The notes under the pieces are model-generated. The model ran no database searches and was not told the origin of the DNA. It worked only from the letters and a program-made list of their open reading frames with translations. DNA of 64,000 nt, from positions 1 through 64,000 of the IMG/VR virus record IMGVR_UViG_3300007512_001367; one strand, 5' to 3'. This DNA is from a virus. The translations under genes and the position numbers were made by a program. How positions within the stretch are numbered: the stretch's first letter is position 1; every line of letters begins with the position of its first letter. Below are positions 5,377 through 22,796 of this stretch, in pieces.

Positions 5377-5558
5377 TAACTAAACAAGAATGTGCAGATT
5401 ATATTAATGCAAATATGTCAGTAGCATTAACTCCTGAAGAAAGAGATACGCTTAGAAATTCAATAGTCAATAGTAAAGTTCCAATATTTTTATCTGAAAT
5501 ATTAATTGAAGTATTCGGTGATGTTACAATGTTAGTTGACATAAGGGACGCAGAATAA
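5373..5558 (+). CDS. Small uncharacterised protein, paralogue of preceding gene
   Basis: 61 residues, predicted mostly helical. Its N-terminus (MITKQECADYI) resembles that of the upstream gene. Its start overlaps the upstream stop and its own stop overlaps the ATG of the next fibre gene, so translation is coupled. Function is unknown. A chaperone or adaptor for the neighbouring fibre is a guess from position only. Confidence 0.6.
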   Translation: MITKQECADYINANMSVALTPEERDTLRNSIVNSKVPIFLSEILIEVFGDVTMLVDIRDAE

Positions 5559-7207
5559 TGGCTTACGAAATAAACAACACATTTGGAACTAAAATAGTTT
5601 CATTAGCAGACGGTACGTTAGATACCACTACTACGGATCTTGCACTCTTTGGAAAAGGTTATGCAGGATTTGGTGAGAAATTAAATGAAAATTTCGTAAA
5701 ACTTCTTGAAAATTTTAATAATACATCGGCACCGTCAAATAAAATAACAGGTCAGCTGTGGTACGATCAAACAAATAAACAAATTAATATCTATACTGGT
5801 ACAAAATGGAAACCAGTAGGATCAACAACTAACTCAACGTCATCACCTACTAATGCATCACAAGGTGATTTATGGTTTGATACAGGTAACACACAATTAT
5901 ATGTTTATACAGGTACAGGATGGTCATTAATTGGACCAACAACAATTGCAGGATCAGGCGTAACAGCAATGATTGGTGAAACCATACAAGATAATGCAGG
6001 AGTAAACAAATCAATATTAAAAGGTGTACAGGAAGATACAGTAGTGTTTGTAGTATCAGGAGAAGCATTTACTCCACACGCAACTGAAACAAATTCTGCG
6101 GCTTTAATTACAGCAGGATTTTCTACAATATCACAAGGTATTCAATTATCATCGTCAGTTGCAAATGTAAAATTTAGAGGACTTGCAACAGATTCAGATA
6201 AATTAGGCGGAGTTGCGGCGGCAAATTATTTGAGATCAGATCAAAATGATAGTACTACTGGTTCATTTACTATTGCAAATGATACAGGAATAATTTTAGG
6301 TGCAGGTTCAGATATTACAATGTCTATGAGCAGTGATAACTTTACAATCGCACAAACTACTATTAATAAAGATATTATTTTTACAGTTAATCAAGGTGGT
6401 GACACAACTACTATAATGACAATGGATGGGTCAACAGGAAGATTAGAACTCCCTACTGTTGGAGATATAAGAATTAAAGGGAATTTAACAGTTGATGGTG
6501 TAACAACTACGGTGAATACATCAACATTAAGAGTTGAAGACAATATTATAGAATTAAACAGAAATATTTCTTCAAATGCAGGAATGCCAAACTACACAGG
6601 TTTGAAAGTAAACAGAGGTGAAACGTCAGTTGCAACTGAGCAAGATTTATTTTGGGTTTGGGATGAAACATTTGCAGATGATGGCACAACACTATACGGA
6701 AATGCAGGAGGAGCCTGGACAGCATTTAAATCAGGTGGTGGAGATGGAGCTGAATTATCAGCGGCAACATTGGTTGATATACGAGCAAATGTAGTACACG
6801 CACAAACAACAAGTGCCATGTATGCGGATTTGGCAGAAAGATATGAGTCAGATATGCAATTGGAAGTTGGAGATGTTGTTATGTTAGGTGGAGAAGCAGA
6901 AGTTACTAAATGTAACAAAGAATTATGTGACAAAGTTTTTGGAGTTGTAAGTAATTCTCCGGCATTTTTAATGAATTCTCAAGCAGGAAATAATGATTCT
7001 CATCCAATGATAGCACTTAAAGGAAGAGTACTTGTTAAAATTAAAGGAAAAGGAAATGCTGGAGATCGTATCGTTTCAGCAGGAAATGGTATAGGAAAAG
7101 TAGCATCAATTGATGAATGTACGGCTTTTAATGTGCTAGGAAGACTAATAAAGGATAAATATTCAGTAGATACAATATTAACGGAATGTGTAATAGGAGT
7201 TAAATAG
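5558..7207 (+). CDS. Tail-fibre-like structural protein, paralogue 3
   Basis: 549 residues. The N-terminus (MAYEINNTFGT, then TDLALFGKGYAGFGE) and the GQLWYDQTNKQINIYTG module match the paralogues at 117 and 1620. The middle block DSDKLGGVAAANYLR is nearly identical to that at 117. The region around residues 305-345 (RIKGNLTVDG, TLRVEDNIIELN) looks like a beta-helical shaft. The C-terminal ~125 residues from MYADLAERYESD are homologous to the end of the 117 protein and contain several Cys residues (KCNKELCDK). It is a virion fibre component by inference. Confidence 0.7.
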   Translation: MAYEINNTFGTKIVSLADGTLDTTTTDLALFGKGYAGFGEKLNENFVKLLENFNNTSAPSNKITGQLWYDQTNKQINIYTGTKWKPVGSTTNSTSSPTNASQGDLWFDTGNTQLYVYTGTGWSLIGPTTIAGSGVTAMIGETIQDNAGVNKSILKGVQEDTVVFVVSGEAFTPHATETNSAALITAGFSTISQGIQLSSSVANVKFRGLATDSDKLGGVAAANYLRSDQNDSTTGSFTIANDTGIILGAGSDITMSMSSDNFTIAQTTINKDIIFTVNQGGDTTTIMTMDGSTGRLELPTVGDIRIKGNLTVDGVTTTVNTSTLRVEDNIIELNRNISSNAGMPNYTGLKVNRGETSVATEQDLFWVWDETFADDGTTLYGNAGGAWTAFKSGGGDGAELSAATLVDIRANVVHAQTTSAMYADLAERYESDMQLEVGDVVMLGGEAEVTKCNKELCDKVFGVVSNSPAFLMNSQAGNNDSHPMIALKGRVLVKIKGKGNAGDRIVSAGNGIGKVASIDECTAFNVLGRLIKDKYSVDTILTECVIGVK

Positions 7208-8253: not shown

Positions 8254-8574
8254 ATGGATATTGGCACCCTTAAAGACTATTCTGATCTAGCACATGATCT
8301 AGCACAAATTAAAAAGAATGCTCTGGAAAAAATGCGGAGCAGGCAGATTGTGGCATATAATGGCAGGCTTTTTCAAGCCAATGCTGAAACCATAAATGTA
8401 GTTCAAACATTTAAAGCACATTCTAAAGATTTTTATATGTTGGACACTAACGATAATCCTTGTCACATAACAGATCCAGATGAATTTTTGAGAATATTAA
8501 TTGAAAGAAATCAAGAAACACTTAATACCTATCATCAATTACACGAGGATCTGAAAAACAAAAGGCTCAAATGA
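8254..8574 (+). CDS. Uncharacterised small protein, first gene of accessory operon
   Basis: 106 residues, helical at both ends, with no signal peptide. The middle (RQIVAYNGRLFQANAETINVV) resembles short phage proteins near tail genes, but I cannot name a family. The ATG coincides with the expected transcription start of the promoter at 8219-8247. The stop overlaps the next gene (ATGA). The N-terminal half has a regular Leu/Ala heptad-like pattern. Confidence 0.6.
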   Translation: MDIGTLKDYSDLAHDLAQIKKNALEKMRSRQIVAYNGRLFQANAETINVVQTFKAHSKDFYMLDTNDNPCHITDPDEFLRILIERNQETLNTYHQLHEDLKNKRLK

Positions 8575-9335
8575 CTACAGGTGTATTAATGTACTGTTTC
8601 AATACACCGGAAGTTAACTATCATTTGTTAGCAGAACGATGTATCGCACAAATACAAAAACATTTAAAATTAGAAATAACAGTAGTCACTAATATTGAAA
8701 CTTATAAACAATTCAAACCGTTAGGGTTTATAAATTATAAACTAGTAGACAATGCAGTCGGTAATAGACGAAGTTATCGTGGAAAAAATATTGCTTGGCA
8801 TAATTTAGAAAGAAGTTTAGCATACGAACATTCACCTTATGATACTACTATTCTTATGGATTGTGATTATTTTGTGTTTACAGATAATCTTTTAACATAC
8901 ACAAACACAGATTATGATTTTTTACTTCATAATAAAGTACACGATTTAACTGGTGAAGATATGATTGAAGGAAAAAATGAATCAACTGTACCAATAGTTT
9001 GGGCAACAGTAACAATATTTCGTAAATCAACTTTTGCAAAGCAGATGTTTGATTTAATTCAGTTAATACAAAAACGTTATGAGCATTATAGAAATTTATA
9101 TCGGATCAAATATAGAAATTATAGAAATGATTTTGCATTTGCAATTGCACTACATCAACTTAATGGAATGATTTCTCATAAAAACTTTATTCCTACTCCA
9201 ATGGCAATGTTAGCACACGAAGTTGATGTGTTAGATATGTCAGATACAGGAGTCACATTTAAATATGGCAAAAAAGTTGGTATAACAGAATTACAAGATG
9301 TTCATGTAATGGATAAGGAGTTTGTAAATGTCTGA
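8571..9335 (+). CDS. GT-A-like glycosyltransferase
   Basis: 254 residues. It begins with a Rossmann-like strand (GVLMYCFNT), then AERCIAQIQKHL and VVTN, the pattern of nucleotide-sugar GT-A enzymes. A DxD-type metal site appears as LMDCDYFVF near residue 100. The next gene has the same organisation, so the two are likely paralogues. As the second gene of the accessory operon it probably transfers a sugar in the cytoplasm. Donor and acceptor are unknown. Confidence 0.6.
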   Translation: MTTGVLMYCFNTPEVNYHLLAERCIAQIQKHLKLEITVVTNIETYKQFKPLGFINYKLVDNAVGNRRSYRGKNIAWHNLERSLAYEHSPYDTTILMDCDYFVFTDNLLTYTNTDYDFLLHNKVHDLTGEDMIEGKNESTVPIVWATVTIFRKSTFAKQMFDLIQLIQKRYEHYRNLYRIKYRNYRNDFAFAIALHQLNGMISHKNFIPTPMAMLAHEVDVLDMSDTGVTFKYGKKVGITELQDVHVMDKEFVNV

Positions 9336-10140
9336 TAGAGGATATGTTTGGTTTGCATTGAACAATTCTACAACTGACTATGTAGAATTAAGCAAAAAAC
9401 TTGCAAGTTCTATTAAAAAACATAACAAGCATAATCAAGTATGTGTTATTACTGATAAACCTGTAGAACATAAAGAAGAAATTGATAAAGTTATTGTATT
9501 AAAAAATGATTATAGTAAAGATCAAGAATGGAAGATGAATAATGAGTGGCAAATTTTTAATTTAACACCTTTTAAACATACAATTAAATTAGAAGCAGAT
9601 ATGTTGTTCACATCAAATACAGACTGGTGGTGGAATTATTTGCATCAGCATAATATGGTGTTTTCGTATCATGTTAGATGTTATAGAGATACAATTATTA
9701 CTAATACACCTTATAGAAAACTTTTTAAAACAAATAATTTGCCAGATGTATACAATGGATTAACTTATTTTAGAAAAAGTAAACAAGCACAATCATTTTA
9801 TAATATTTGTAAAGATATTATGTTAAATTGGAATACAGTTAGAGATACATTTTTAATAAATTGTCATGATAAACACTCAACAACAGATGTTGTTTATGCT
9901 CTTGCACTAAAAATTCAAGATCCATTGTGTGAAAAACAAATCAAATTTGAATGGTTTAATTTTATGCATAATAAAAGTGGAGTAAATGGATTAAGTCGTG
10001 CATATATTAATGATCAATATCTATATACAATGATGGTAGGTCATCCTTTAGTTGGAGAATACATATATTCAGGTGGTTATAAACAATCAAGAATATTTCA
10101 TTATCATAATAAAAAATTAATAAAGGAATTTTATGACTAA
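9328..10140 (+). CDS. GT-A-like glycosyltransferase, paralogue of preceding gene
   Basis: 270 residues with an N-terminal strand YVWFALNN, helix KLASSIKKHNK and strand VCVITDKP, as in the gene at 8571. The likely metal site is KLEADMLF near residue 90, where the family's DxD is EAD. It overlaps its neighbours on both sides by eight bases. Its many aromatic residues suggest a carbohydrate acceptor. The function is inferred from fold pattern and context. Confidence 0.55.
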   Translation: MSDRGYVWFALNNSTTDYVELSKKLASSIKKHNKHNQVCVITDKPVEHKEEIDKVIVLKNDYSKDQEWKMNNEWQIFNLTPFKHTIKLEADMLFTSNTDWWWNYLHQHNMVFSYHVRCYRDTIITNTPYRKLFKTNNLPDVYNGLTYFRKSKQAQSFYNICKDIMLNWNTVRDTFLINCHDKHSTTDVVYALALKIQDPLCEKQIKFEWFNFMHNKSGVNGLSRAYINDQYLYTMMVGHPLVGEYIYSGGYKQSRIFHYHNKKLIKEFYD

Positions 10141-10429
10141 TTTTTGGAAAGCATTAGAAGAGTTTAAGCCTACTCCACCTAAAAAACATTATCTTACTTT
10201 TAATAAAGAAAAAATAGAAGTGACTTTAGAACAATATTTACAAGTTATTAATGCAGGAATAGAAAACTTTGAATATAAAGACAAAAAAATTACAAGAAAA
10301 AAGCGTATTCCTGCAGAACAATTACAACCAACACTACATTTAGCAGAGGTAGGTTATCATTTTTATAATGGGGATCCATATTGGGTAATAGGACATAATA
10401 GAGAAGGATTTGAATGGCGGATAGAATAA
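10133..10429 (+). CDS. Uncharacterised 98-residue protein
   Basis: A charged, Lys-rich protein starting MTNFWKALEEFKP and ending HNREGFEWRIE. It has no membrane segment or recognisable motif. It overlaps the previous gene by 8 bases and the next by 16, so it belongs to the glycosyltransferase operon. Its small size suggests an accessory or adaptor role, which is only a guess. Confidence 0.55.
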   Translation: MTNFWKALEEFKPTPPKKHYLTFNKEKIEVTLEQYLQVINAGIENFEYKDKKITRKKRIPAEQLQPTLHLAEVGYHFYNGDPYWVIGHNREGFEWRIE

Positions 10430-11307
10430 GAATATCAGATTTAGACTTTGTTTATATCAGCTATAAGGAACCCAATAAGGAAGAAAATTGGGCAGACTTA
10501 TTAAGCAAAGTACCTTGGGCAAAAAGAATAGATGGTGTTGTAGGATTTGACAATGCACACAAAGCCGCGGCAGAAAAAGCAGAAACAGATTTTTTCATAT
10601 CAGTTGATGGTGATAATATTATAGATGAAGCATTTTTATTAGAATCATTAGATTGGACAAAAACAAATCCAAAAGCTGTACATCGTTGGAGAGCAAAAAA
10701 TAATGTAAATGGTTTAGTATATGGCAATGGTGGGTTAGTAGGTTGGGATAAAGAAACGTGTTTACAAATGAAAACTCATGAAAATGCAGATAGTGAAAAA
10801 GCACAAATTGATTTTTGTTGGACAGTACCTCATGAAAATTTGCATAATTGTTATTCAACAACAATTATAAATGTAGATCCACAACAGGCTTTTATTGCAG
10901 GATATCGAGAAGGTACTAAAATGAGTTTAGAACAAGGATTACCTGTTGCACCAATGCATTTTAAAAAATTAATTCAGCCTTCGAACTTGCGGGTGTTAAT
11001 AACATGGATGAGTGTAGGTGCTGATATGGAATATGGTCGATTTGCTATGTTAGGTGCAAGAATGGGTTGTTATGCAACAACTGTTAGAGGAGCAAATATT
11101 CTTGAAGTAAGAGATATGGAACAAATGGCCAGTGTATTTACTAAAACTGTTGAAGATATTGGAACGGATTTACAAGCATATGGAGAATCAGTAAGACGAA
11201 GATTGGATTTGCCAGTAGCAGACTATGATGCCGACGAAAGTAAATTGTTTAAATTCTGTATGCCACAACATATTAATAAAGGAGTACAAGATCGTGAAAC
11301 AAAGTGA
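10414..11307 (+). CDS. GT-A-like glycosyltransferase with DGDN metal motif
   Basis: 297 residues. The first ~75 residues follow a GT-A pattern: strand FVYISYKEP, helix, WAKRIDGVVGF, helix HKAAAEKAE and strand FFISVDGDNII, whose DGD is a plausible DxD site. The same pattern recurs in the second module of the protein at 23870. The C-terminal third is helical (VRRRLDL). It is likely a cytosolic glycosyltransferase of the surface or fibre modification pathway. The start has no strong ribosome site but overlaps the upstream gene. Confidence 0.6.
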   Translation: MADRIRISDLDFVYISYKEPNKEENWADLLSKVPWAKRIDGVVGFDNAHKAAAEKAETDFFISVDGDNIIDEAFLLESLDWTKTNPKAVHRWRAKNNVNGLVYGNGGLVGWDKETCLQMKTHENADSEKAQIDFCWTVPHENLHNCYSTTIINVDPQQAFIAGYREGTKMSLEQGLPVAPMHFKKLIQPSNLRVLITWMSVGADMEYGRFAMLGARMGCYATTVRGANILEVRDMEQMASVFTKTVEDIGTDLQAYGESVRRRLDLPVADYDADESKLFKFCMPQHINKGVQDRETK

Positions 11308-12664
11308 TTATAAATCAGATGCTCTAGTTGCCGCAAAGAAATTAGAAACAATTTCTCCTACTATGTGTTTGGCTAAATGGAATCAAGTTTCATTACATCT
11401 GCCTACAGGATTAACAAATAGCTGTTATCATCCACCTTTGCACCAAATAGATTCTACAAATTTAGATAGTAACCCTGCTGAATTACATAATACACCGGAG
11501 AAATTAAAACAAAGACAACAAATGCTCAATGGTGAACGTCCTGAAGGATGTTCTTATTGCTGGAATATAGAAGATACTGGACAAATGTCAGATAGACAGT
11601 ATCGTTCAGGTGAACCATGGGCTATACAAGATTTTGAGTCGATTAAAAATAAACCAATTGACTCAGGATGGACGCCGAGATACGTAGAAGTTAATTTTAA
11701 TAATGCTTGTAACCTCAAGTGTTCTTATTGTTCACCTCAATTCTCGACCACGTGGGGACAGGAGATTGCTGTATATGGCCAATATCCAACGTCTCCTCCC
11801 CACAACGCTCCAGAACATTTTACTGGCAGACGTAGACCTATTCCTCATAGAGAACATAATCCATATGTTGATGCATTTTGGAGATGGTGGCCTACGTTAT
11901 ATAAAAATTTAAAACATTTCAGAATGACAGGGGGTGAACCTTTAATGGATAAAAATACATATGAAGTACTTGAATACATTACATATCACCCTAAACCCGA
12001 TTTACATTTAAACGTAACGTCAAATTTCTGTCCACCAGATGAAAAATTAAAAAACAAGTATTTTGATATGGTTAAAAGAATATGTTTAAATGAAGCAGTA
12101 GAACATATGATGCAATTCGTATCAGTAGATGCATATGGCAAAAAAGCAGAATACATACGTTATGGATTAGATTTTAATCGTATGTTGGATAATGTGGATG
12201 AATTTTTGGAACGTATACCAGTGCGTAATTCTATAACGTTTATTATTACCTATAATAATTTAAGTGTTACTAGTTTAAATGATTTATTAAGAGATATACG
12301 TTTGTTAAGAGAAAAGCATTCAAAAACGTATCAAAGAGTATGGTTTGACATACCATTATTAAGACAACCAGCATGGCAACAGATAACTTTATTGCCAGAA
12401 TCGTATCAAGAGATACACAAAGCGAATATAGAATATATGAGAGAATTTTCTGGCGAAGATGAAGGGTTTGGAGGATTCAAAGATTTTGAAATTCAAAAAA
12501 TGTTACGCAATTTAGCTTATTGGCGCAATAATAAAAACGATAATACGCAAAATAAAAAGAACTTTTACGCATTTTTTAACGAACATGATCGCAGACGTGG
12601 AACGCATTTTGAAAATACGTTTCCAGAAATGGCGGAATTTTGGACGGAGTGTAAAAACTTATGA
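11294..12664 (+). CDS. N-twitch radical SAM enzyme 1
   Basis: 456 residues, read from a GTG at 11294 with GGAG nine bases upstream. A longer frame from 11225 runs through the upstream gene and is unlikely. The radical SAM 4Fe-4S motif is Cys139-x3-Cys143-x2-Cys146 (ACNLKCSYC), followed by TGGEP. An N-terminal cysteine domain precedes it (C25, C44, C86, C89; MCLAKW, SCYHP, CSYCW), where a SPASM/twitch auxiliary cluster normally lies C-terminal. This fits the 'N-terminal twitch' radical SAM group known from annotation, whose substrate is unknown. It forms the sister of the gene at 13383 and shares the CxAKW and CYHP/CHHP variant. Confidence 0.8.
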   Translation: MKQSDYKSDALVAAKKLETISPTMCLAKWNQVSLHLPTGLTNSCYHPPLHQIDSTNLDSNPAELHNTPEKLKQRQQMLNGERPEGCSYCWNIEDTGQMSDRQYRSGEPWAIQDFESIKNKPIDSGWTPRYVEVNFNNACNLKCSYCSPQFSTTWGQEIAVYGQYPTSPPHNAPEHFTGRRRPIPHREHNPYVDAFWRWWPTLYKNLKHFRMTGGEPLMDKNTYEVLEYITYHPKPDLHLNVTSNFCPPDEKLKNKYFDMVKRICLNEAVEHMMQFVSVDAYGKKAEYIRYGLDFNRMLDNVDEFLERIPVRNSITFIITYNNLSVTSLNDLLRDIRLLREKHSKTYQRVWFDIPLLRQPAWQQITLLPESYQEIHKANIEYMREFSGEDEGFGGFKDFEIQKMLRNLAYWRNNKNDNTQNKKNFYAFFNEHDRRRGTHFENTFPEMAEFWTECKNL

Positions 12665-13416
12665 AAAAAATAATAACAACAGGTTGTAGTTATACAAAAT
12701 ATAAATGGCCATGTTGGCCAAACTTTTTATCATGGTTTGAAAATGGGTATGATTTAAAAAATTTAGGAGCGGCAGGTAACTCTAACGAAATTATAATGAG
12801 ATCAGTTTATAATGCTATTAATAAATGGAAGAGTAGTACAGAGAAAGTTTATATTATGTGGTCAGGAACAAATAGATATGAAATTGTACACGATAAGATT
12901 GACCAAGATTTGAAAAAAGATGAAACTGTTACATATTCTCGTTGGGATCCAGACTTTAATTGGAATGTTTTTTATGGTGGTCATTATTTTAAAGACAAAC
13001 ATGAATATTATGTACGTTGGTTTCAAAACGAAAGGCAAAATGATGTACGTATGCTTGAAAGGATTTTGTTTACACAAATGTATTTAGAAAAGCATAATAT
13101 TGAATATAAAATGATGTGTTATCGAGGACATATTATTATGCACGACAAAGATAAAATGTCAAATGGACAAAGGGCATTATACAATAAAATTGATTGGAGT
13201 AAGTTTATATTTTATAAAGACTTTGGTGGATTAGATGACTTTGCTTATGAATTATATCCTGAACAATTTGCAGAAAAAAGTGATCTACATCCGTTACCAT
13301 TTACACATTATAAATGGGTTAAAGATATTATTTTTAAAAGTGACATAGAACCACCAGAAGAGGAATATAGGAAATTAAAAGAATGGAAGACCTTAAATTT
13401 AAAAAAGAAAAACTAG
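12661..13416 (+). CDS. SGNH-like hydrolase/acyltransferase
   Basis: 251 residues. Block I is TTGCSYT (Ser9 region, GCS instead of the usual GDS). Block II is NLGAAGNSN, block III is MWSGTNRYE, and a C-terminal DLHPLPFTHY supplies the Asp/His pair. This is the GDSL/SGNH layout of esterases and O-acetyl-handling enzymes. It lies between two radical SAM genes with ATGA-type overlaps, so it likely acts on the same substrate. It has no signal peptide, so it is cytosolic. Block assignments are by eye. Confidence 0.6.
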   Translation: MKKIITTGCSYTKYKWPCWPNFLSWFENGYDLKNLGAAGNSNEIIMRSVYNAINKWKSSTEKVYIMWSGTNRYEIVHDKIDQDLKKDETVTYSRWDPDFNWNVFYGGHYFKDKHEYYVRWFQNERQNDVRMLERILFTQMYLEKHNIEYKMMCYRGHIIMHDKDKMSNGQRALYNKIDWSKFIFYKDFGGLDDFAYELYPEQFAEKSDLHPLPFTHYKWVKDIIFKSDIEPPEEEYRKLKEWKTLNLKKKN

Positions 13417-14729
13417 ATACAAAGTCAGCATCATTTTGTGCGGCTAAATGGTACAATGCGACTATATGGTTAGGATCAGGACAAACAACATCTTGTCACC
13501 ATCCATTGCCACACGCAATTAATCTGGAAGAAATAAAAACAAATCCTTCTGCAATACACAATACAAAACAGAAAAAAGAACAACGAAGACAAATGCAAGT
13601 TGGAGAACGACCTGCAGGATGTGAATATTGTTGGAAAATTGAAGACATAGGACGAGATGCAATATCAGATAGAGTATATAAATCAAAAATTTATTCTGAT
13701 ATGGCATTAGATGATGCATTTAGAACAGATTATAAAACAGATTATAATTTAAAAACTTTAGAAATTGCATTTGATAGAACTTGCAACTTTGCTTGTTCAT
13801 ATTGTAATCCTGCATTTAGTACAACGTGGGCAAATGACATCAAATATAAAGGTCCATATAAAAATTTAACAACAGATGGGCGTAATCACTTTACTCATGC
13901 ACACGATTCTGCAGAACCATATAAAAAAGATGAAGCAAATCCATATGTAGAAGCATTTTACAAATGGTGGGAGACAGATTTGCATAAAAGTTTAGATGAA
14001 TTAAGAATTACAGGTGGAGAACCAATGATGTCACCAAATTTATGGCGATTATTAGATTGGTTTGAGACACAAAAGGATAAAATTAACCCAAATATGCGTT
14101 TGGCTATAAACTCCAATTTAGGGGCAAAAAGTGAAATGATAGAAAAGTTCAAAGCCAAACTTAAACACTTTGACAACTTTCATTTATATACATCAATGGA
14201 GGCAACAAACGAACAAGCAGAATATATTAGAGATGGTTTAAATTATTCACAATGGTTTGTTGAAGTTGTTAACATGATGCAAGATCGTGTGCCATCACAA
14301 ATTCATAATATGTGTACCATTAATGCTTTATGTTTAGAATCGTTGCCACAGTTTTTAGAAACAATTGTTAAACAAAAAGAAAGTGCTTGTAAGCATTATG
14401 GAATACCTTTTAATTTTACTTTAAATATTTTAAGATTTCCTAGCTTTCAAAGTGCTTTAGTTCTACCCGACGACTTGCGTAATATGTTTAAACAGAATTT
14501 AGAAAAATTTTTACGGCAATTTGGCTCGCTATTAGAGGAAATGGAAATTAATCAGGTCCAAAGATTAGTGGATTATTTGGATGTTGTGAAGACTCCACAT
14601 AAGGATTCTGCATCAGTTGATAAGTTAAGAAAAGATTTTAAAACATTTTATACACAATATGATAAAAGAAGAGGAAAGAATTTTGAAAAAACTTTCCCAA
14701 TTATAGGAGAATGGTACCGTGGCATATGA
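13383..14729 (+). CDS. N-twitch radical SAM enzyme 2
   Basis: 448 residues. It has Cys134-x3-Cys138-x2-Cys141 (TCNFACSYC) and LRITGGEPMM, as in radical SAM enzymes. The N-terminal cysteines are C19, C38, C80 and C83 (FCAAKW, SCHHP, CEYCW). It resembles the enzyme at 11294 in length, in using CHHP rather than a CC pair, and in a shared C-terminal KRRGKNFEKTFP motif. It is probably an Fe-S oxidoreductase acting on a sugar or peptide. It overlaps the SGNH gene by 34 bases. Confidence 0.8.
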   Translation: MEDLKFKKEKLDTKSASFCAAKWYNATIWLGSGQTTSCHHPLPHAINLEEIKTNPSAIHNTKQKKEQRRQMQVGERPAGCEYCWKIEDIGRDAISDRVYKSKIYSDMALDDAFRTDYKTDYNLKTLEIAFDRTCNFACSYCNPAFSTTWANDIKYKGPYKNLTTDGRNHFTHAHDSAEPYKKDEANPYVEAFYKWWETDLHKSLDELRITGGEPMMSPNLWRLLDWFETQKDKINPNMRLAINSNLGAKSEMIEKFKAKLKHFDNFHLYTSMEATNEQAEYIRDGLNYSQWFVEVVNMMQDRVPSQIHNMCTINALCLESLPQFLETIVKQKESACKHYGIPFNFTLNILRFPSFQSALVLPDDLRNMFKQNLEKFLRQFGSLLEEMEINQVQRLVDYLDVVKTPHKDSASVDKLRKDFKTFYTQYDKRRGKNFEKTFPIIGEWYRGI

Positions 14730-16011
14730 GTACGGGGCAAAAGAGCCTGAGAAATTAAAAATAAAAAATATGACTCCTAAACAAAAGGAGTTGTTAATAG
14801 AAAGTGAATCATTTTGTATGTTACCGTGGATGCATCTTCACGCATATCCAGATGGTAGAGCATATCCTTGTTGTTTTGCTTTTGATCCTTATCCAGTAGG
14901 TGATTTAAACAAGCAAAGTTTAAAAGAAGTTTTTAATAATGATAAAATGAAAGAAATGCGTTTGAAAATGTTGAATAATAAAAAATCACGTGAATGTATA
15001 AAGTGTTATGACCAAGAAAAATCAGGATTTTTTAGTTTACGTTTAAGTTCTAATAAGCACTTTGGACATAATATTGGACTAGTTGATTCAACACAACCTG
15101 ACGGTACTGCTGACTTTGTAATGAAATATTGGGATATACGTTTTTCCAACTTATGCAATATGGCTTGTAGAAGTTGTGGTACATGGTTTAGTTCTAACTG
15201 GTATGAAGACCATAAAAAATTAACAGGTAGTCCTCCTCCCCATGCAAAAATAATGAGAGTTGGTAGATATACAAACGATTTGTGGGAACAGATGTTAGAA
15301 TCATTTGAGCACACAGAACAATTTTATTTTGCTGGAGGTGAACCAATTATTATGGAAGAACATTATAGAATATTAAAAGAATTAGATAAACGTAAAATGT
15401 ATCACGTAAGATTAATTTATAATACTAATTTTAGTAGAACTAAATTTAAAGACATAGATGTTTTTGAGCTATGGAACAAATTTGATTCAGTTTCAATTGG
15501 TGCAAGTTTAGATGCAGAAGGCCCACGTGGAGAATTAATGCGTAAAGGTACTGTATGGAAAGATATTGTTGCTAATAGAAAAAGAATGATGGAAGTTTGT
15601 CCTAAAGTAGATTTTTATATAAGTTCTACTGTTGGTTTAGTTAATTCTTTACACGTTTGTGATTTTCATAAAAGTTGGGTAGAACAAGGATTAATTAAAT
15701 CACAAGATTTCAATTATAATTTATTACAACATCCTACTTGGCAAAGAATAGATTTACTTCCACCTGAGTTTAAACAGCAAGTAAAAGAAAAGTATGATGC
15801 ACATATGAAATGGTTAAAAGATAAAGACCCATTAACAAGGGCAACTAAAGGGTTTGAATCAGCATTAAATTGGATGTTTAAAACAGATAATCAAAAACAT
15901 TTGGATTTACATTTTGCACAAACACGAAAATATGATGAAATTAGGAACGAAAAAACACTAGATGTATTTCCAGAATGGAAGGAGTTATTTAACAAGTATG
16001 AAAAGAAATAA
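14719..16011 (+). CDS. N-twitch radical SAM enzyme 3
   Basis: 430 residues from a GTG start with AGGAGA upstream at 14705. Cys146-x3-Cys150-x2-Cys153 (LCNMACRSC) is the SAM cluster motif and YFAGGEP binds SAM. The N-terminal auxiliary domain has C33 (FCMLPW), the pair C51-C52 (YPCC) and C93-x2-C96, the full SPASM-like pattern moved to the N-terminus. Its C-terminal third (HPTWQRIDLLP) resembles the end of enzyme 1. Substrate unknown. Confidence 0.8.
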   Translation: MAYEYGAKEPEKLKIKNMTPKQKELLIESESFCMLPWMHLHAYPDGRAYPCCFAFDPYPVGDLNKQSLKEVFNNDKMKEMRLKMLNNKKSRECIKCYDQEKSGFFSLRLSSNKHFGHNIGLVDSTQPDGTADFVMKYWDIRFSNLCNMACRSCGTWFSSNWYEDHKKLTGSPPPHAKIMRVGRYTNDLWEQMLESFEHTEQFYFAGGEPIIMEEHYRILKELDKRKMYHVRLIYNTNFSRTKFKDIDVFELWNKFDSVSIGASLDAEGPRGELMRKGTVWKDIVANRKRMMEVCPKVDFYISSTVGLVNSLHVCDFHKSWVEQGLIKSQDFNYNLLQHPTWQRIDLLPPEFKQQVKEKYDAHMKWLKDKDPLTRATKGFESALNWMFKTDNQKHLDLHFAQTRKYDEIRNEKTLDVFPEWKELFNKYEKK

Positions 16012-17323
16012 ACCTTCTGAAGGAAATAAAACATTTTGTATGGCACCATGGGTGCATACGTATTTGTCACCACAAATGGAAAGAAGGTTGTGTTGTGCTA
16101 GTTTGGAAGGATTTACAAACTTTAAGCAGTATATTGATAAGCAAGAATCCGACGGTAGTGTTAAATTAAATTTGCCTACTCTTGAAGAACATTGGAATTC
16201 TAATTATATGAAGGGTGTTAGAAAAGATTTAATGGCAGGAAAAGAAATACCACAGTGTGAAACTTGTAATTATAAACTTTTAAATGCAAACGTATATAGA
16301 CAGCATTTTAATCGAATGTATTCCAATCAAATAAATGAAGCATTTGAGAAAACCGATGAAACAGGGCATACACAAATGAAAGTTACTAGTTTCGATTATA
16401 GATTTTCAAATTTATGTAATTTTAGTTGTAGAATGTGTGGTGATATGTTATCAAGCACGTGGGAGGCAGAAAATAAAAAGCACGGAACAGTAGATTATGA
16501 AAACAAAAGAATTTGGGGAAGGAAAGATATTAAAGAAAGATTACAAAAATTTCATGATCAACAAGTAGTTAAAGAATTTACAGAAGCAATAGAAGAAAAA
16601 AGAATTAAAGAATTTTATTGGTGTGGTGGTGAACCTTTAATGTGGAAGATACATTGGACAGCTATGCAGAGGGTTGTAGAGTTAGGTTATGCAAATAGTG
16701 TATTTGCACGATATAATTCTAATATGAGTAGAATAGACTTTTATGGAAAAAATTTATTTGATGATTGTTTAATACATTTTCAAGATTGGCAAATTAATGC
16801 ATCAATAGACGGTACAGGAGAAATTGGAGAATATATTAGAACAGGATTAGATTATAAACAATGGTTTAAAAATATGCAGTATGCCAGAAAATTTGTTAAG
16901 CATCCACGGCAATTACAATTAGATTTAACTGTTACATTGCCGGGTTTATTTGATTTAGAAAATATGTATAAATTAAGTAAGGAATTAAAAGTACCATTAT
17001 TGTGTAAAAAAGTTTTTAGTTTCACTAATGATCTTTTGTTAAGTCCTTTGTGTTTGCCAAGAGATATTTTAGAAGAAATAGTGTCAGAAGTGCAAAATAA
17101 AATTACAGATAAGCCTAATGTTTTTAATATGGCTTTTTTTGCAGGATTAAAAGATTTAAAATCGCACCCAACCAATCAAGAAAAATATTCAACAAAATTG
17201 TATTGGGAAGGTCTTAGAGAAGGAAAAAAACATCTAGAATATTTAGATAGAATTAGAGGAACAGATATTAAAAAAATATTAGGTAAAAATAAAAAGGTAT
17301 TAGAATGGTGGACAAGTATATAA
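15998..17323 (+). CDS. N-twitch radical SAM enzyme 4
   Basis: 441 residues. I take the ATG at 15998, which has GGAG upstream (15981-15984), over an ATG at 15962 lying deep in the previous gene. Auxiliary cysteines are C14 (FCMAPW), C32-C33 and C87-x2-C90. The SAM cluster is C140-x3-C144-x2-C147 (LCNFSCRMC), followed by WCGGEP with an unusual Cys before the GGEP. It contains the INASIDG strand typical of the family. It overlaps both neighbours and is likely co-translated with them. Confidence 0.8.
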   Translation: MKRNKPSEGNKTFCMAPWVHTYLSPQMERRLCCASLEGFTNFKQYIDKQESDGSVKLNLPTLEEHWNSNYMKGVRKDLMAGKEIPQCETCNYKLLNANVYRQHFNRMYSNQINEAFEKTDETGHTQMKVTSFDYRFSNLCNFSCRMCGDMLSSTWEAENKKHGTVDYENKRIWGRKDIKERLQKFHDQQVVKEFTEAIEEKRIKEFYWCGGEPLMWKIHWTAMQRVVELGYANSVFARYNSNMSRIDFYGKNLFDDCLIHFQDWQINASIDGTGEIGEYIRTGLDYKQWFKNMQYARKFVKHPRQLQLDLTVTLPGLFDLENMYKLSKELKVPLLCKKVFSFTNDLLLSPLCLPRDILEEIVSEVQNKITDKPNVFNMAFFAGLKDLKSHPTNQEKYSTKLYWEGLREGKKHLEYLDRIRGTDIKKILGKNKKVLEWWTSI

Positions 17324-18471
17324 AATCAAACATTTGCCCGTTGCCGTGGACTAGTTTAGAAATTGACGTAAATGGCTCAGCATCGCCTTGTTGTTTGTAT
17401 AAAGGTACTATTCCAAATTATAAGGTATATGAAACAAATCTTAAAACAATACAGAATTCAGAGTATATGGAAAAATTAAGACAACAATTTAAAGACGGTA
17501 AAAAACCGATAGGATGTCAAAGTTGTTGGCAAGAAGAAAGTGCTGGAAAGATTAGTAAACGTATGAATTCACTTTACAAAATGAAACATAGTTTAAAAGA
17601 CTGGACACCAGACAGTGAAACAAATTTAAAATTTATAGATTTTAAGTTAGGAAATGTATGTAATTTAAAATGTAGAATATGTGGTAGTTGGAGTTCTAGT
17701 AAATGGGCACAGGAAGAATTAGACTATGGAGAAAATCCAGTTGCAAGAAAGCACTTAACAGAAGGTGGATGGCCTAAAAAGAATCCACAATTTTTTGATG
17801 ATATAAAAGAAGTATTAGAAGATGTAGAATATTTTGAATTCACAGGCGGAGAACCTTTTATGATACATAATCATTTTAAAATATTAGAACATTGTGTTGA
17901 AAAAGGGTATGCTAAAAATCAAGATATACATTATAATACAAATGGAACACATTACCCGGGTAGAGAAATTTTTGATTTGTGGAAACATTTTAAAAGAGTT
18001 GAAATTGCGTTTAGTATTGATGATGTAGGAGAACAATTTCAATACCAAAGACATCCTGCAAATTGGAAAGAAGTAAATTATAATCTAAATCAATTTAAAG
18101 TATATCAATTAGCAAATATGGAATTTCAAATTTGTACAACAATTAGTATTTTTAACATTTTTAGTTTGGCAAAAATTGCATTATGGGTAAGACAATTTGA
18201 ACCAACATTTTTTTATGTTAATACTTGTTTTGATCCGGATTATTTTAATATTCAAACATTACCAAAACAAATAAAAAATATTGTAAATTCACGTTATTCA
18301 GATTTAAACGATTTTAAACCTACATTAAGATTTATGAATTCAGCACATAGAGATTCTAGAGAAATACAAAAACAAAGAAAAGAACGTATTTTACAAACAG
18401 ACAAGTATAGAGAAGAAAATTTTGGAGATGTTTTTCCACTTTTAAATAAAGTATTAAAAATTTATGAATAA
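17305..18471 (+). CDS. N-twitch radical SAM enzyme 5
   Basis: 388 residues, the shortest of the five here. Auxiliary cysteines are C11 (ICPLPW), C29-C30 (SPCC) and C71-x2-C74 (CQSCW). The SAM motif is C119-x3-C123-x2-C126 (VCNLKCRIC), then EFTGGEPF. It closes the run of consecutive radical SAM genes and overlaps the next SGNH gene by eight bases. The conserved IxFSIDD strand suggests a standard partial TIM barrel. The reaction is unknown. Confidence 0.8.
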   Translation: MVDKYIKSNICPLPWTSLEIDVNGSASPCCLYKGTIPNYKVYETNLKTIQNSEYMEKLRQQFKDGKKPIGCQSCWQEESAGKISKRMNSLYKMKHSLKDWTPDSETNLKFIDFKLGNVCNLKCRICGSWSSSKWAQEELDYGENPVARKHLTEGGWPKKNPQFFDDIKEVLEDVEYFEFTGGEPFMIHNHFKILEHCVEKGYAKNQDIHYNTNGTHYPGREIFDLWKHFKRVEIAFSIDDVGEQFQYQRHPANWKEVNYNLNQFKVYQLANMEFQICTTISIFNIFSLAKIALWVRQFEPTFFYVNTCFDPDYFNIQTLPKQIKNIVNSRYSDLNDFKPTLRFMNSAHRDSREIQKQRKERILQTDKYREENFGDVFPLLNKVLKIYE

Positions 18472-19288
18472 AAAAGTTGTAAAAAAATTTATAGCAGGCG
18501 GTTGTAGTTTTACATTTGGACATGAATTGTCAGATGATAACGAAGGTAAAACACCATCTAAACAAAGTTGGGCATACATTTTAAGTCAAGAATTAAATCT
18601 TTGTCAGCCTGACGATTATGTTTGTACAGCAAGGCCAGGTTCTGGTAATACAGGAATTGCTCGTAGAGTTTTTAACGCCGTAGGAAATTTAAAAGATATT
18701 ACTGGAGTTGCTGTAATGTGGTCATTTTTATCACGGTATGATTGGGCAATGCCAAGGCATAAAAATTTAGAAAATACTCGTTGGGCAACAATAACACCAT
18801 GGGATACAGTACAAGGTGAAGCCGAAGCATTTAGAGAGTTATCAGGATCGGAACCACAACAAGAAGTATGGAAACATAGAAGAGATTTATTAAAAAATAC
18901 TGGTGTAAGTGATTTTGCAAATTCGTTATATAAAAATGCGGCTAACGAATATCATGAATTATATTTGAGTTGGAAATCAATTATTTGGTTGCAAAATTTA
19001 TTGGAAAAGAAAAAAATTCCATTTATGTTTACACTTGCAGATAATACTTTGTTTTATGATGAAATGACTTTACATAGTGAGAAGGATTCGTTTATGAAAG
19101 CATTATATAATGAAATAGATTTTACCAAATGGTTTAGTTTTGGTGAAAGAATGATGGGATTTAACCAGTGGGCAACGTTAAATGAATATGAAAAAGGGGT
19201 AACACATCCGCTAGACAAAGCACACCTAGATGCTGTAAAATTAATGTTACCTAAGTTTAAAGAAATAATAGGAGGAAAAAATGTTTAG
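18464..19288 (+). CDS. SGNH-like hydrolase/acyltransferase, second copy
   Basis: 274 residues. AGGCSFTFGHE is block I with the same GCS variant as the gene at 12661. Then come GSGNTGIARRVFNAVG (block II), VMWSFLSRYDW (block III) and HPLDKAHLDAV (Asp-x2-His, block V). It flanks the radical SAM block on the downstream side as the first copy does inside it. A cytosolic esterase or acyltransferase role is inferred. Confidence 0.6.
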   Translation: MNKKVVKKFIAGGCSFTFGHELSDDNEGKTPSKQSWAYILSQELNLCQPDDYVCTARPGSGNTGIARRVFNAVGNLKDITGVAVMWSFLSRYDWAMPRHKNLENTRWATITPWDTVQGEAEAFRELSGSEPQQEVWKHRRDLLKNTGVSDFANSLYKNAANEYHELYLSWKSIIWLQNLLEKKKIPFMFTLADNTLFYDEMTLHSEKDSFMKALYNEIDFTKWFSFGERMMGFNQWATLNEYEKGVTHPLDKAHLDAVKLMLPKFKEIIGGKNV

Positions 19289-19385: not shown

Positions 19386-19823
19386 ATGAAAATATTAATA
19401 ATGGGATTACCGGGATCAGGAAAAACCACATTAGCAAAAAAGTTAGCACCAATGCTAATGGCAGTTCATTTAAATGCCGATGAGGTAAGAAAAGAAGCAA
19501 ACGATTTTGATTTTTCTGCAGAAGGTAGAGTAAGACAAGCAAACAGAATGAAACAATTAGCACAAGAAGCCGCAAATGATAATAGAATTGTTGTAGCAGA
19601 TTTTATTTGCCCAACAGAACGTACTAGAAACGATTTTAATGCCAGTTATACAATTTGGATGGATACGATTAAAAAAGGAAGATTTGAAGACACAAATCAA
19701 ATGTTTGAAGAACCAAAAAATCCAGATTTTATAGTAACGCACTATGATGCAGATATGTGGGCATTTATGATTAAGAATGATATAACAGAAAAATTTCAAT
19801 TAATAGGACGTCATAGCATATGA
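19386..19823 (+). CDS. APS-kinase-like P-loop kinase
   Basis: 145 residues. The Walker A motif is GLPGSGKTT at the N-terminus, followed by LNADEVR, a QANRMKQLA helix and VVADFICPTERTRNDF. This order matches adenylylsulfate kinase (CysC), which phosphorylates APS to PAPS, the sulfuryl donor of sulfotransferases. It is shorter than CysC (about 200) and its C-terminal half diverges, so another small-molecule kinase is possible. It overlaps the carbamoyltransferase gene, and sulfotransferase-like genes occur further on. Confidence 0.6.
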   Translation: MKILIMGLPGSGKTTLAKKLAPMLMAVHLNADEVRKEANDFDFSAEGRVRQANRMKQLAQEAANDNRIVVADFICPTERTRNDFNASYTIWMDTIKKGRFEDTNQMFEEPKNPDFIVTHYDADMWAFMIKNDITEKFQLIGRHSI

Positions 19824-21274
19824 GGATATTAGGAATAAATTGCATGAACCATGACGCCGCAATGGCAGTAGTAGACGACAGAGAAATTCTGTGGGCCGCA
19901 CATTCAGAACGTTATTCAAGAATTAAAAATGATCATTTCTTAAATCAAGCAATTGTTGACGAAGCAAAAACATATGGACCGTTTGATAAAGTTGTTTATT
20001 ATGAAAAACCTTTGTTAAAGAAAACTAGACAACTATATGCAGGACAATATAGTGATGCTTTAAGTTATACAGAAATGCCACAATGGAATTTGGATAGGTT
20101 TGGAATTAAAATTGATGAATATGTAAATCATCATAATTCACACGCCGCGGCAGGATATTTTACATCACCATTTAAAGAAGCAGTAATTCTTACAGTTGAT
20201 GCAATTGGAGAATGGGATACAGTGTCTATATCAGTTGCAAAAGGAAATAAAATTGAACGGAAAGAAACTATAAGGTATCCGCATTCATTAGGAATATTGT
20301 ATTCTGCATTTACACAACGTTGTGGATTAAAACCTGCAGAAGAAGAATATATTTTAATGGGAATGGCGGCATATGGAAAACCAGATTATAAAGATGATAT
20401 ATATGAAGATTTTGTTCAGCAAGGTCCTTTTAAATTAAAACAAAACTTACATCAAGGTATAGGTAATTGGCACGCCGGCGCAGATCCAGTTGATCTTGCC
20501 GCATCAGTACAAGCTGTTCTTGTAGAATGTCTTGCAAATTTATGGCAAAGAGCATCTGAGTATGGTAGTAAAAATTTAGTTTATGTAGGAGGTGTTGCAT
20601 TAAATTGTGTAGCTAATTCAGGACTTGCTAATATGGGATTGTTTGATAATATTTGGATTATTCCTAATCCGGGTGATGCAGGATCTTCAATAGGATGTAT
20701 TGCGGCTTCAGAACAAAAACATTTAAATTGGAAAAATCCATTTTTAGGTTATAACATTAAAAGTGAATATCCAGTTGATGCAATTATAAAAGAATTAACA
20801 GAAAGTAAAATTTGTGGAGTTGCAAATGGTAAAGCAGAGTTCGGACCACGAGCACTTGGTAATAGATCGCTTTTGGCTGATCCGAGAGGTCCAGGGATTA
20901 AGGATATGGTAAATCGAATTAAGAGAAGACAGAAATTTAGACCATTCGCTCCGGCTATTTTAGAAGAGGATGTAAATGACTATTTTGCTCTCCCAACCCC
21001 CGTAAAAAATACCCCTTATATGCAGTTTACAGCGGCGTACACGCATGGTAAAGACTGTCCTGCCATTATACACTATGATAACTCAAGCCGTGTGCAAACC
21101 GTGTCTAAAAGCGATAACGAAGGGTTTTATGAGCTGTTAAAAGCATGGAAAAAAAAGACAGGGTGCCCAATGCTTCTAAATACTAGTTTGAATATTAAGG
21201 GGCAACCGATGGTAAATGACATCGAAGATGCCAATGCATTTACCTACAAATATGGAGTAAAGGTATGTCAGTAA
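19820..21274 (+). CDS. NodU/TobZ-type carbamoyltransferase
   Basis: 484 residues. It has an N-terminal ASKHA-like domain (ILGINCMNHDAAMAVV), HHNSHAAAGYF with the metal-binding histidines, and TVDAIGEWDT. The C-terminal YrdC-like/NodU portion holds AEFGPRALGNRSLLADPR. These enzymes transfer a carbamoyl group from carbamoyl phosphate, via carbamoyl-AMP, to hydroxyls of sugars. It is somewhat shorter than typical (~550). With glycosyl- and sulfo-transfer genes nearby it suggests decoration of a glycan. Codon use near 21000-21150 looks more GC-rich than its surroundings. Confidence 0.85.
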   Translation: MRILGINCMNHDAAMAVVDDREILWAAHSERYSRIKNDHFLNQAIVDEAKTYGPFDKVVYYEKPLLKKTRQLYAGQYSDALSYTEMPQWNLDRFGIKIDEYVNHHNSHAAAGYFTSPFKEAVILTVDAIGEWDTVSISVAKGNKIERKETIRYPHSLGILYSAFTQRCGLKPAEEEYILMGMAAYGKPDYKDDIYEDFVQQGPFKLKQNLHQGIGNWHAGADPVDLAASVQAVLVECLANLWQRASEYGSKNLVYVGGVALNCVANSGLANMGLFDNIWIIPNPGDAGSSIGCIAASEQKHLNWKNPFLGYNIKSEYPVDAIIKELTESKICGVANGKAEFGPRALGNRSLLADPRGPGIKDMVNRIKRRQKFRPFAPAILEEDVNDYFALPTPVKNTPYMQFTAAYTHGKDCPAIIHYDNSSRVQTVSKSDNEGFYELLKAWKKKTGCPMLLNTSLNIKGQPMVNDIEDANAFTYKYGVKVCQ

Positions 21275-21759
21275 ATTTTGAATTTAAGTTTAAAAATATT
21301 AATCCTGTTAATAACAAGTATCCAATTTGCAGAATAGAACTTAATAGTAATGATATTTGTGTTGGTAAAGTAGAGCGAAGAATAGTTTTAGATGCAGACA
21401 CGCAGGAGAACAATGTCTTAAGAATATTTTTTGAAAACAAAGGGAACAAGGACACTATTTTAGATGATAACAATAAAATTAAACAAGATCTAAATTTTGA
21501 ATTAGAAAAATTAACTATAGACGGGATCGATTTGCAACATTTGATATGGGAGAGCAGATATGTTACTAAAGACTCTGTGATTGATTCTTGTTTGTTTTTT
21601 GGGCCAAAAGGATATTGGGAATTAAAATTTGATACACCTGTATTGAAATGGTTTCTAAAGACCAATCATAATAAGAACAACAACGATCCTACCTGGGAGG
21701 AAGATTACAAATATTACGAAGAATCATGTCAGATATTAAACAAAATACAGATAAAATAA
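21265..21759 (+). CDS. Uncharacterised beta-rich protein, relative of 61079 gene
   Basis: 164 residues with alternating strands (FEFKFKNI, ICRIELNSND, VLRIFFENKG). It ends in WELKFDTPVLKWFL and EESCQILNKI. The gene at 61079 shows a similar order, with short beta strands and GESCQIIMKV at the end, so I place both in one unnamed family. A ligand- or carbohydrate-binding beta sandwich is plausible. It sits between the carbamoyltransferase and the PLP-fold protein, overlapping both. Confidence 0.55.
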   Translation: MSVNFEFKFKNINPVNNKYPICRIELNSNDICVGKVERRIVLDADTQENNVLRIFFENKGNKDTILDDNNKIKQDLNFELEKLTIDGIDLQHLIWESRYVTKDSVIDSCLFFGPKGYWELKFDTPVLKWFLKTNHNKNNNDPTWEEDYKYYEESCQILNKIQIK

Positions 21760-22796
21760 CAAAGATTGCTTGGGCACTAATGACAGCCTCAGCAAAAAAG
21801 AAGTTGGATGTTCCGGGTGAATACCTATGGAATATTCCAGTAAGTGATGAATTCCACGAGATAAGGTCCAAATCTTGGAGTGTGTATTCTAGTGGTAACT
21901 GCATAAAGGATCAACACTTGAGAGATTTTATTCAAGGTATCAATTTGAACAAATCCTTACGAGACCCTTACGTAGTGAAAAAATTTGAGGAGTATTTTCC
22001 GGTGTGGTTGAAACAATGTCCAAGGTATCAATTAAAAGGCATTAATGATTTCAAATACAGTTGTTTCTCACAAGGTTCACAAGAATACTTTGTAAATTTT
22101 TATTTGAAATACCGGGATAAAAGATTTCGAGTATTCAAAGGAGAGTACTGGTGGCACATGGAGGTTTGGAAACATTTAGAACTTAAATGGGCGTACATAG
22201 AAGATGACGATTTGGGTGCCGATGACGTTGTAATATTAAGTTTTCCTTTTGCACGGTTAGGTGACGAACATCCACAGCAAAAAGATTTGTTGGAACAGTG
22301 TGAAAGAATTGGCATACCAGTAATGTTAGATTTCATATACATACCCAACGCGACGTATGATACTCTACAAATTGATTTGACACCAACTTGCATTAAGTCT
22401 TTAAGTTTTAGTTTCAGTAAAGCGTTTCCAGTAGGAAATGCCAGAATAGCATTACGAATGACAAGGGAAAAAATAAAAGATCCAATGCAGATAAGCAATG
22501 ATGAAAACGTTGCTAACAGGCTTGCCTCGGGTCTTGGTTTACAGTTAATGAAAAATTATAATGTAGATTACATGGTTGAAAAATACTTCGACGAACAAAA
22601 ACATTGGTGTAGGTCTCTTGGATTGAAACCAACAAAGGTGGTGCATTTCGCTTTAGGTGAACCATTCACTGAGCATGGTAGAAAGAATAATAAAAGATTT
22701 TTTAGTGAATTTAATGATCAACAAAATAGATATAATCTTGGACCTCTTTTTGAAAATAAAAAATTATTACAAACTTTAGGATTTTATGAATATTAA
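21726..22796 (+). CDS. Divergent PLP-dependent aminotransferase-like protein
   Basis: 356 residues. The region around 190-245 (VILSFPFA, VMLDFIYIPNA, LSFSFSKAFPVGNARIALRM) follows fold-type I class I/II aminotransferases: the Asp that pairs with the pyridine ring, then SxSK with the Schiff-base lysine. The N-terminal 130 residues are not familiar. It overlaps the DegT-type aminotransferase gene downstream. It may make an amino sugar or amino acid precursor for the glycan, or act on the radical SAM product. Confidence 0.5.
   Translation: MSDIKQNTDKITKIAWALMTASAKKKLDVPGEYLWNIPVSDEFHEIRSKSWSVYSSGNCIKDQHLRDFIQGINLNKSLRDPYVVKKFEEYFPVWLKQCPRYQLKGINDFKYSCFSQGSQEYFVNFYLKYRDKRFRVFKGEYWWHMEVWKHLELKWAYIEDDDLGADDVVILSFPFARLGDEHPQQKDLLEQCERIGIPVMLDFIYIPNATYDTLQIDLTPTCIKSLSFSFSKAFPVGNARIALRMTREKIKDPMQISNDENVANRLASGLGLQLMKNYNVDYMVEKYFDEQKHWCRSLGLKPTKVVHFALGEPFTEHGRKNNKRFFSEFNDQQNRYNLGPLFENKKLLQTLGFYEY

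Follow-up and report, generated by a model that had tools for sequence, protein, structure and literature searches.

We analysed a window of 64,000 bases, which corresponds to positions 1–64,000 of the virus record IMGVR_UViG_3300007512_001367 (117,806 bases) and derives from a large uncultured tailed phage. The plus strand of this window carries five genes, here named R1 to R5, which encode radical S-adenosylmethionine (SAM) enzymes and form a single overlapping operon.

R1, 11225–12664 (+): N-twitch radical SAM enzyme, CYHP subtype; NF033640 337 bits; AlphaFold2 model
R2, 13383–14729 (+): N-twitch radical SAM enzyme, CHHP subtype; NF033640 304 bits; orthologue alignment
R3, 14719–16011 (+): N-twitch radical SAM enzyme, canonical CC subtype; NF033640 397 bits; SPASM PF13186 E 2e-13, residues 33–97
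R4, 15962–17323 (+): N-twitch radical SAM enzyme; NF033640 307 bits; orthologue alignment
R5, 17305–18471 (+): N-twitch radical SAM enzyme; NF033640 366 bits; SPASM PF13186 E 1.5e-7

Family, cysteine motifs and predicted fold of R1–R5

Family membership was called by a score above the curated cut-off (170 bits) of the NCBIfam model NF033640 (N_Twi_rSAM), a family of enzymes with an N-terminal twitch domain that bears a name without a function. All five proteins pass this cut-off with matches spanning essentially the whole model. An earlier prediction, made from the sequence, had described five radical SAM reading frames in an overlapping operon, and this description is borne out. The motifs CX3CX2C and GGEP occur in 5/5 proteins, and R2/R3, R3/R4 and R4/R5 overlap by 11, 50 and 19 base pairs, respectively. 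The start once given for R1, position 11294, is an in-frame GTG within the longer open reading frame (ORF) listed above. Chance is no serious alternative as the origin of these shared features.

The cysteine domain lies ahead of the barrel, as predicted. Specifically, the pattern CX12-13GX4C...CX2C is found in R1, R2, R3 and R5, while R4 lacks the Gly but retains all four Cys. Scored on 16–20 diverse orthologues per group, four Cys are invariant in every group: C48/C67/C109/C112 in R1, C19/C38/C80/C83 in R2, C33/C51/C93/C96 in R3, C26/C44/C99/C102 in R4, and C11/C29/C71/C74 in R5. The twitch domain of R3 occupies residues ~33–97, ahead of the CX3CX2C motif at residue 146. Among the five, Pfam SPASM scores above its cut-off for R3 and R5 only; R1 and R2, of a divergent C[YH]HP subtype, escape this model. 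The hidden Markov models of viperin, MoaA and QueE also match, but far under their own cut-offs and as generic radical SAM similarity, so an antiviral viperin role was rejected.

We modelled R1 and R3 with AlphaFold2 from phage alignments. The R3 model reached a predicted local distance difference test (pLDDT) of 86.6 and a predicted template modelling (pTM) score of 0.84, and the R1 model 81.9 and 0.83, with pLDDT below 50 in the first ~23 residues. Both models have a permuted SPASM/twitch radical SAM fold, with the auxiliary domain at the N-terminus. Foldseek comparison with the PDB returned mainly SPASM/twitch and other radical SAM enzymes, namely SkfB, AprD4, SuiB, anSME and EpeE for R1, and SkfB, CteB, GDGT-MAS, anSME, BlsE and viperin for R3; the sugar-acting enzymes AprD4 and BlsE are thus among them. 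The template modelling (TM) scores are modest (0.3–0.4), as a permuted auxiliary domain would lead one to expect. A sequence search of the PDB with the R1 profile gave no match. In a viral structure library, the whole-fold relatives are mostly uncultured Caudovirales proteins, with TM up to 0.88, together with KVP40 Q6WHP4.

Among the nearest known enzymes is BtrN, the twitch dehydrogenase of butirosin biosynthesis (PDB 4m7s/4m7t). Residues 36–105 of the R3 profile match BtrN residues 165–237 (E 0.024), and all four auxiliary-cluster Cys of BtrN (C169/C187/C232/C235) align with Cys of R3. The two differ in that the BtrN twitch follows the barrel at the C-terminus, whereas that of R1–R5 precedes it; the BtrN substrate, moreover, is an aminocyclitol. 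The BtrN auxiliary cluster is ligated by four Cys, and this full ligation is tied to substrate oxidation, unlike the open site of MoaA; fully ligated twitch/SPASM clusters accompany two-electron oxidation in both BtrN and anSME (PMC6231123, PMC9012708). From the invariant residues, the auxiliary cluster of R1–R5 is likewise expected to be ligated by four Cys, and net oxidation would therefore be their favoured chemistry. Together, the NF033640 scores (304–397 bits), the four-Cys pattern, the BtrN match and the two models uphold the N-twitch assignment of the original prediction.

That prediction counted five family members; the operon set stands, and three more copies (two inside the window and one beyond it) had been missed. 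These also pass the NF033640 cut-off over the full model length.

R6, 41623–42774 (−): N-twitch radical SAM gene outside the operon; NF033640 293 bits
R7, 48310–49467 (−): N-twitch radical SAM gene outside the operon; NF033640 264 bits
R8, 64008–65162 of the record, beyond the window (−): N_Twi_rSAM gene; passes the NF033640 cut-off

A GMP reductase gene (42788–43837) adjoins R6, and R7 lies in one stretch with a GTP cyclohydrolase I gene (45273–45986) and a sugar epimerase gene (45986–47020).

Conservation and age of the five groups

Searches with R3, R1, R4 and h297, a putative glycosyltransferase encoded just upstream of R1, gave several hundred viral loci. R3 genes were clustered at 95% nucleotide identity into populations, 65 of which had enough flanking sequence. 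All of R1, R2, R3, R4 and R5 are present in 65/65 of these dereplicated populations, so that the genes are kept together in related phages rather than scattered. The order is R1-R2-R3-R4-R5 in 34 populations and R1-R2-R3-R5-R4 in 28; the remaining 3 have an extra paralogue or one gene under the bit threshold used for ordering. Many of these loci had been retrieved with R3 or R1 as the query, so divergent loci centred on R4 were examined as a control. Among the 39 with sufficient span, R2, R3 and R5 occur in 39/39, R1 in 34, and a carbamoyltransferase gene (CT, listed below) in 36. Median identities in the divergent set are 57% for R1, 58% for R2, 49% for R3, 48% for R4 and 38% for R5; the glycosyltransferase (GT) proteins (32–41%) and the SGNH-like protein S2 (35%) are mostly less alike than the radical SAM proteins. 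The ratio of nonsynonymous to synonymous substitution rates (dN/dS) for close pairs of R1–R5 is 0.02–0.13, and the five genes are under strong purifying selection.

Counterparts exist in bacteria. In a genome scan, a Bacteriovoracaceae contig from a metagenome-assembled genome (L176) showed an eight-gene array adjoining rplU and obg, with orthologues of R1 (49% identity), R2 (51 and 53%), R3 (39%), R4 (39%) and R5 (35%). This array and its relatives (L215, L216, L381–L388) differ from the phage module: R2 is duplicated in L176, and in other genomes R2 is scattered or stands beside PqqD or export genes. Five further loci (L171–L175), 75–77% identical in several unrelated genome bins, were rejected as bacterial orthologues and treated as mis-binned phage contigs. 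In a tree of 136 proteins holding phage R1–R5 and bacterial sequences, the nodes joining phage and bacterial members have supports of 0.98 (R1), 1.0 (R2), 0.97 (R3), 1.0 (R4) and 0.998 (R5). Since each phage group joins bacterial sequences, the five enzymes diverged before the phage lineage spread, and R1–R5 are five separate ancient orthologous groups. Additionally, among 129 genomes of the Bacteriovoracaceae class, R2 orthologues (>500 bits) occur in 9, R4 orthologues (>350 bits) in 6 and both in 5 (Fisher p 2.7e-6, uncorrected for kinship), often on distant parts of the genome.

These data bear directly on whether the cluster could have arisen by recent duplication of a single enzyme within this lineage, with the copies retained through drift or for their dosage. 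A single family accounts for all copies, and extra copies lie elsewhere in the record; however, the five groups each have bacterial relatives, all five are retained in every population, and dN/dS lies well below 0.2. The 136-protein tree contradicts recent tandem duplication, and we consider this explanation highly improbable. The multi-step pathway proposed in the original prediction gains strength from the five ancient groups, their joint retention, the bacterial co-occurrence of R2 and R4 and the purifying selection. Neither outcome named beforehand as refuting the prediction, structure models lacking an N-terminal auxiliary-cluster fold or genes lying unlinked in all related phages, was seen. 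Its description as the most unusual system of the window is less well supported, for arrays of the family are common in related phages (6–16 matches per viral record) and in some bacteria (up to 26 per genome). Bacterial genomes with 17–26 matches and large arrays of these genes are represented by L215 6235–16017, L216 6984–12397 and genomes G012, G009, G014 and G015.

A nucleotidyltransferase-like protein, named by its motif [W/I]xRNS...SDxD[LV][TS] and without a Pfam name, recurs beside bacterial N_Twi_rSAM genes, R2 orthologues included, and is once fused to a family member. Its sites are as follows.

L176, 15727–16689; L223, 5321–7408; L226, 6148–7125; L381, 3350–4288
L385, 4912–5826; L386, 7173–8102; L387, 7199–8116; L388, 9840–10715

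Neighbouring genes and the possible product of the pathway

The genes around R1–R5, with their presence in the 65 populations where counted, are listed below; GTa, GTb and h356 are assigned from sequence.

h549, 5558–7207 (+): virion protein (tail fibre or structural), encoded ahead of the module; phrog_19602 tail fiber E 9e-8, phrog_14394 virion structural E 8e-9
GTa, 8571–9335 (+): putative GT-A glycosyltransferase (DxD-type); linked to the module in 45/65
GTb, 9328–10140 (+): putative GT-A glycosyltransferase; phrog_1903 (no assigned function) E 7e-9; linked in 49/65
h297, 10414–11307 (+): putative GT-A glycosyltransferase (SVDGDN); linked in 60/65
S1, 12661–13416 (+): SGNH-like protein (DUF6071) between R1 and R2; PF19547 E 2e-7; optional, 13/65
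S2, 18464–19288 (+): SGNH-like hydrolase or acyltransferase after R5; 55/65
K, 19386–19823 (+): small P-loop kinase (APS-kinase/AAA_33-like), optional; PF01583 E 8e-12, PF13671 E 7e-11; 24/65
CT, 19820–21274 (+): NodU/TobZ-type O-carbamoyltransferase; PF16861 E 3e-53, PF02543 E 1e-46; 62/65
h356, 21726–22796 (+): pyridoxal phosphate enzyme-like motif (SFSFSKAFPVGNARIALR); possible pathway neighbour
AT, 22786–23880 (+): DegT/DnrJ/EryC1 sugar aminotransferase; PF01041 E 1.5e-72
QueE-like radical SAM gene, 35424–36311 (−): separate from the N_Twi_rSAM genes

Upstream, the proteins at 117–1604 and 5558–7207 match tail-fibre and virion PHROGs. Pfam names no family for GTa, GTb, h297, S2 or h356. 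In S2, residues S15, G59, N62, H248 and H254 are invariant in 11 orthologues, which fits an SGNH enzyme. Two of the neighbours have homologues beside bacterial family members: a 29% homologue of h297 adjoins an N_Twi_rSAM gene in L191/L224, and a 26% homologue of h356 lies between N_Twi_rSAM genes in L218. The original prediction had taken the two interleaved SGNH-like genes as evidence for a pathway; both are present and S2 is widespread, but S1 is too rare among the populations to be an integral part of the module. The carbamoyltransferase family is found in 19/19 phage records, and the co-conservation of R1–R5 with CT is shown by the data.

We tentatively favour, as a possible explanation, that R1–R5 carry out several oxidative steps in tailoring a carbamoylated glycoconjugate that belongs to the virion or to the host envelope. 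In this scheme, R1–R5 would be five non-redundant enzymes with a permuted, N-terminal twitch that follow a BtrN-like logic. The SAM cluster of each would generate a 5'-deoxyadenosyl radical to remove hydrogen from a carbon of the substrate, and the fully Cys-ligated auxiliary cluster would accept the leftover electron, giving net oxidation. The five would work one after another on a single class of substrate, most probably the sugar units of a glycoconjugate, which CT might then O-carbamoylate, while S2, AT and the variable GT cassette might contribute acylation, amination and attachment. The product, displayed on phage fibres or on the surface of the infected cell, could serve host recognition or the exclusion of rival phages. 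We infer the oxidation, the shared substrate acted on in turn, its sugar nature and its virion or envelope destination. Since the five enzymes are kept together in phages and also occur in bacteria, they probably represent successive steps towards a probably sugar-based surface decoration. The explanation as a whole draws, among other points, on the constancy of CT, the tail-fibre genes upstream and the bacterial R2 neighbours, which include a GT4 glycosyltransferase, an ABC-2 permease and ATPase exporter pair and DegT aminotransferases; in one locus (L384), a carbamoyltransferase and a DegT gene stand beside R2.

Several observations weigh against this explanation. The bacterial array L176 holds the five-enzyme set without CT or a GT beside it, and conversely the fibre and GT cassette occurs without R1–R5 in L360–L366. 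The GTs and the radical SAM set are therefore separable: they belong to two modules that usually adjoin, a fibre-GT cassette and a radical SAM-carbamoyltransferase block, and the cassette was rejected as an obligate part of the R1–R5 module. The sequence match between R3 and BtrN is weak, and the openly licensed literature yielded no function, substrate or product for any N_Twi_rSAM enzyme. Finally, the nearest structures found by Foldseek are peptide maturases rather than sugar enzymes, and PqqD-like proteins, which usually bind peptides, adjoin bacterial R2 (PF05402 E 4e-9; weaker in L383, E 4e-4).

The last two observations make the strongest rival a peptide or protein target: R1–R5 may modify side chains of a phage protein, such as the tail fibre h549, or of a peptide, in the style of maturases of ribosomally synthesized and post-translationally modified peptides like SkfB, CteB and SuiB, and EpeE in the case of R1. 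The fibre genes directly upstream would suit such a target. However, PqqD was found in 0/19 phage records searched (records that may be fragments), and a PqqD-dependent route is rejected for them; the R2/R3 and R4/R5 overlaps leave no space for a precursor gene between; and CT, the most constant partner, belongs to a small-molecule or sugar enzyme family. We regard a peptide or fibre substrate as rather unlikely.

As a third candidate, R1–R5 may produce a hypermodified nucleotide that enters the DNA or RNA of the phage. Besides the QueE-like gene, the record encodes FolE, the GTP cyclohydrolase I near R7 (−), and a QueD-like ORF (L011 3555–4061, −), which suggests a partial 7-deazaguanine pathway. 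DNA hypermodification includes carbamoyltransferases and P-loop kinases, and a relative of the fold in KVP40 lies near a QueC-like gene. Yet the Que and FolE genes are elsewhere in the record, far from R1–R5, which sit beside fibre and GT genes, and the thymidylate synthase/dCMP hydroxymethylase family (PF00303), expected for a hydroxymethylpyrimidine route, was not found in the record, possibly a fragment; bacterial R2 orthologues, too, stand beside export and GT genes. A nucleotide product is accordingly improbable. Comparably improbable is a diffusible secondary metabolite, a small-molecule effector made during infection. Natural-product pathways typically involve radical tailoring by several enzymes, and a Paenibacillus locus (L179) places N_Twi_rSAM among acyl-carrier-protein and ketosynthase-like genes, named from their sequence, but the phage module showed neither a synthase or synthetase nor an exporter, and its place beside fibre genes points to a structural target.

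Returning to the glycoconjugate, we also put forward a broader and more doubtful proposal, which we think unlikely in full: an ancient assembly line of five enzymes, common to aquatic T4-like phages and bacteria of the Bacteriovoracaceae type, might make a chemically new, multiply oxidised glycoconjugate, carbamoylated in phages, as a coat of fibre-type or envelope surfaces that controls how prey or host cells are bound. Although radical SAM enzymes are costly and sensitive to oxygen, five of them are kept under strong selection in many phage populations, and their product is therefore implied to be important to infection. With the five groups, their constant CT partner and their bacterial counterparts, the unexplained radical SAM surplus of marine T4-like phages becomes a defined enzyme set, open to expression and assay, and a function for any of R1–R5 would be the first for the permuted N-twitch family, as far as our literature search shows.

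Related phages and other features of the record

The record contains T4-like replication genes, and its DNA polymerase and clamp loader have their nearest relatives in the large T4-like phages Phosso, Atu_ph07 and PA5oct. By DNA comparison, no close relative was found among sequenced phage isolates; at the protein level only remote matches appeared, most often to Vibrio phages, and GTb and h297 had no match among the isolates. The KVP40 protein Q6WHP4 shares the overall fold (TM 0.59–0.74) but only ~22% identity over half the length, and Vibrio phages K566/K567 have three neighbouring radical SAM genes; no R1–R5 set, GT cassette or carbamoyltransferase is annotated in the stretches of these phages examined. 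The KVP40 locus (L228 6499–10162), with its N-twitch-fold gene near the QueC-like gene and a second radical SAM gene, offers a cultured, experimentally accessible relative.

Neither the N_Twi_rSAM family nor the wealth of radical SAM genes in such phages is new. The marine T4-like genome TARA_ERS488813_N000010 is described with 12 radical SAM genes (PMC5332604), and in pelagimyophages the 'host recognition clusters' combine fibres, glycosyltransferases and radical SAM cassettes, with a curli operon elsewhere in the genome (PMC7029224). By description, these phages resemble ours in their T4-like replication genes, many radical SAM genes, CsgG, and fibre or GT-like genes beside radical SAM genes, while the N-twitch family, the five groups, the carbamoyltransferase link and the bacterial counterpart are not identified in the available portions of the two accounts. 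We found no description of the conserved five-group set, its carbamoyltransferase partner or its bacterial counterpart in the openly licensed literature.

A CsgG gene is present at L011 11690–14440 (record ~111.7–114.4 kb; PF03783 E 5.5e-51) with curli-like ORFs adjoining, a pattern published for pelagimyophages. An A-type Fe-S carrier-like ORF (L011 117–449, −) lies in the same record and fits support for many Fe-S enzymes. A glycine-rich virion-type protein in the fibre region (3033–5114, +) has a weak Hint (intein/hedgehog-like) match near its middle. A DUF2201 metallopeptidase/VWA protein and a MoxR-like AAA ATPase form a pair at 28343–29581 and 29578–30684 (−). Lastly, a 1,215-residue lipoprotein-like ORF (L009 7409–11056, −), odd in a phage, combines a subtilisin-type core (GTHVAG/GTSMAAPH) with a possible C-terminal autotransporter region.

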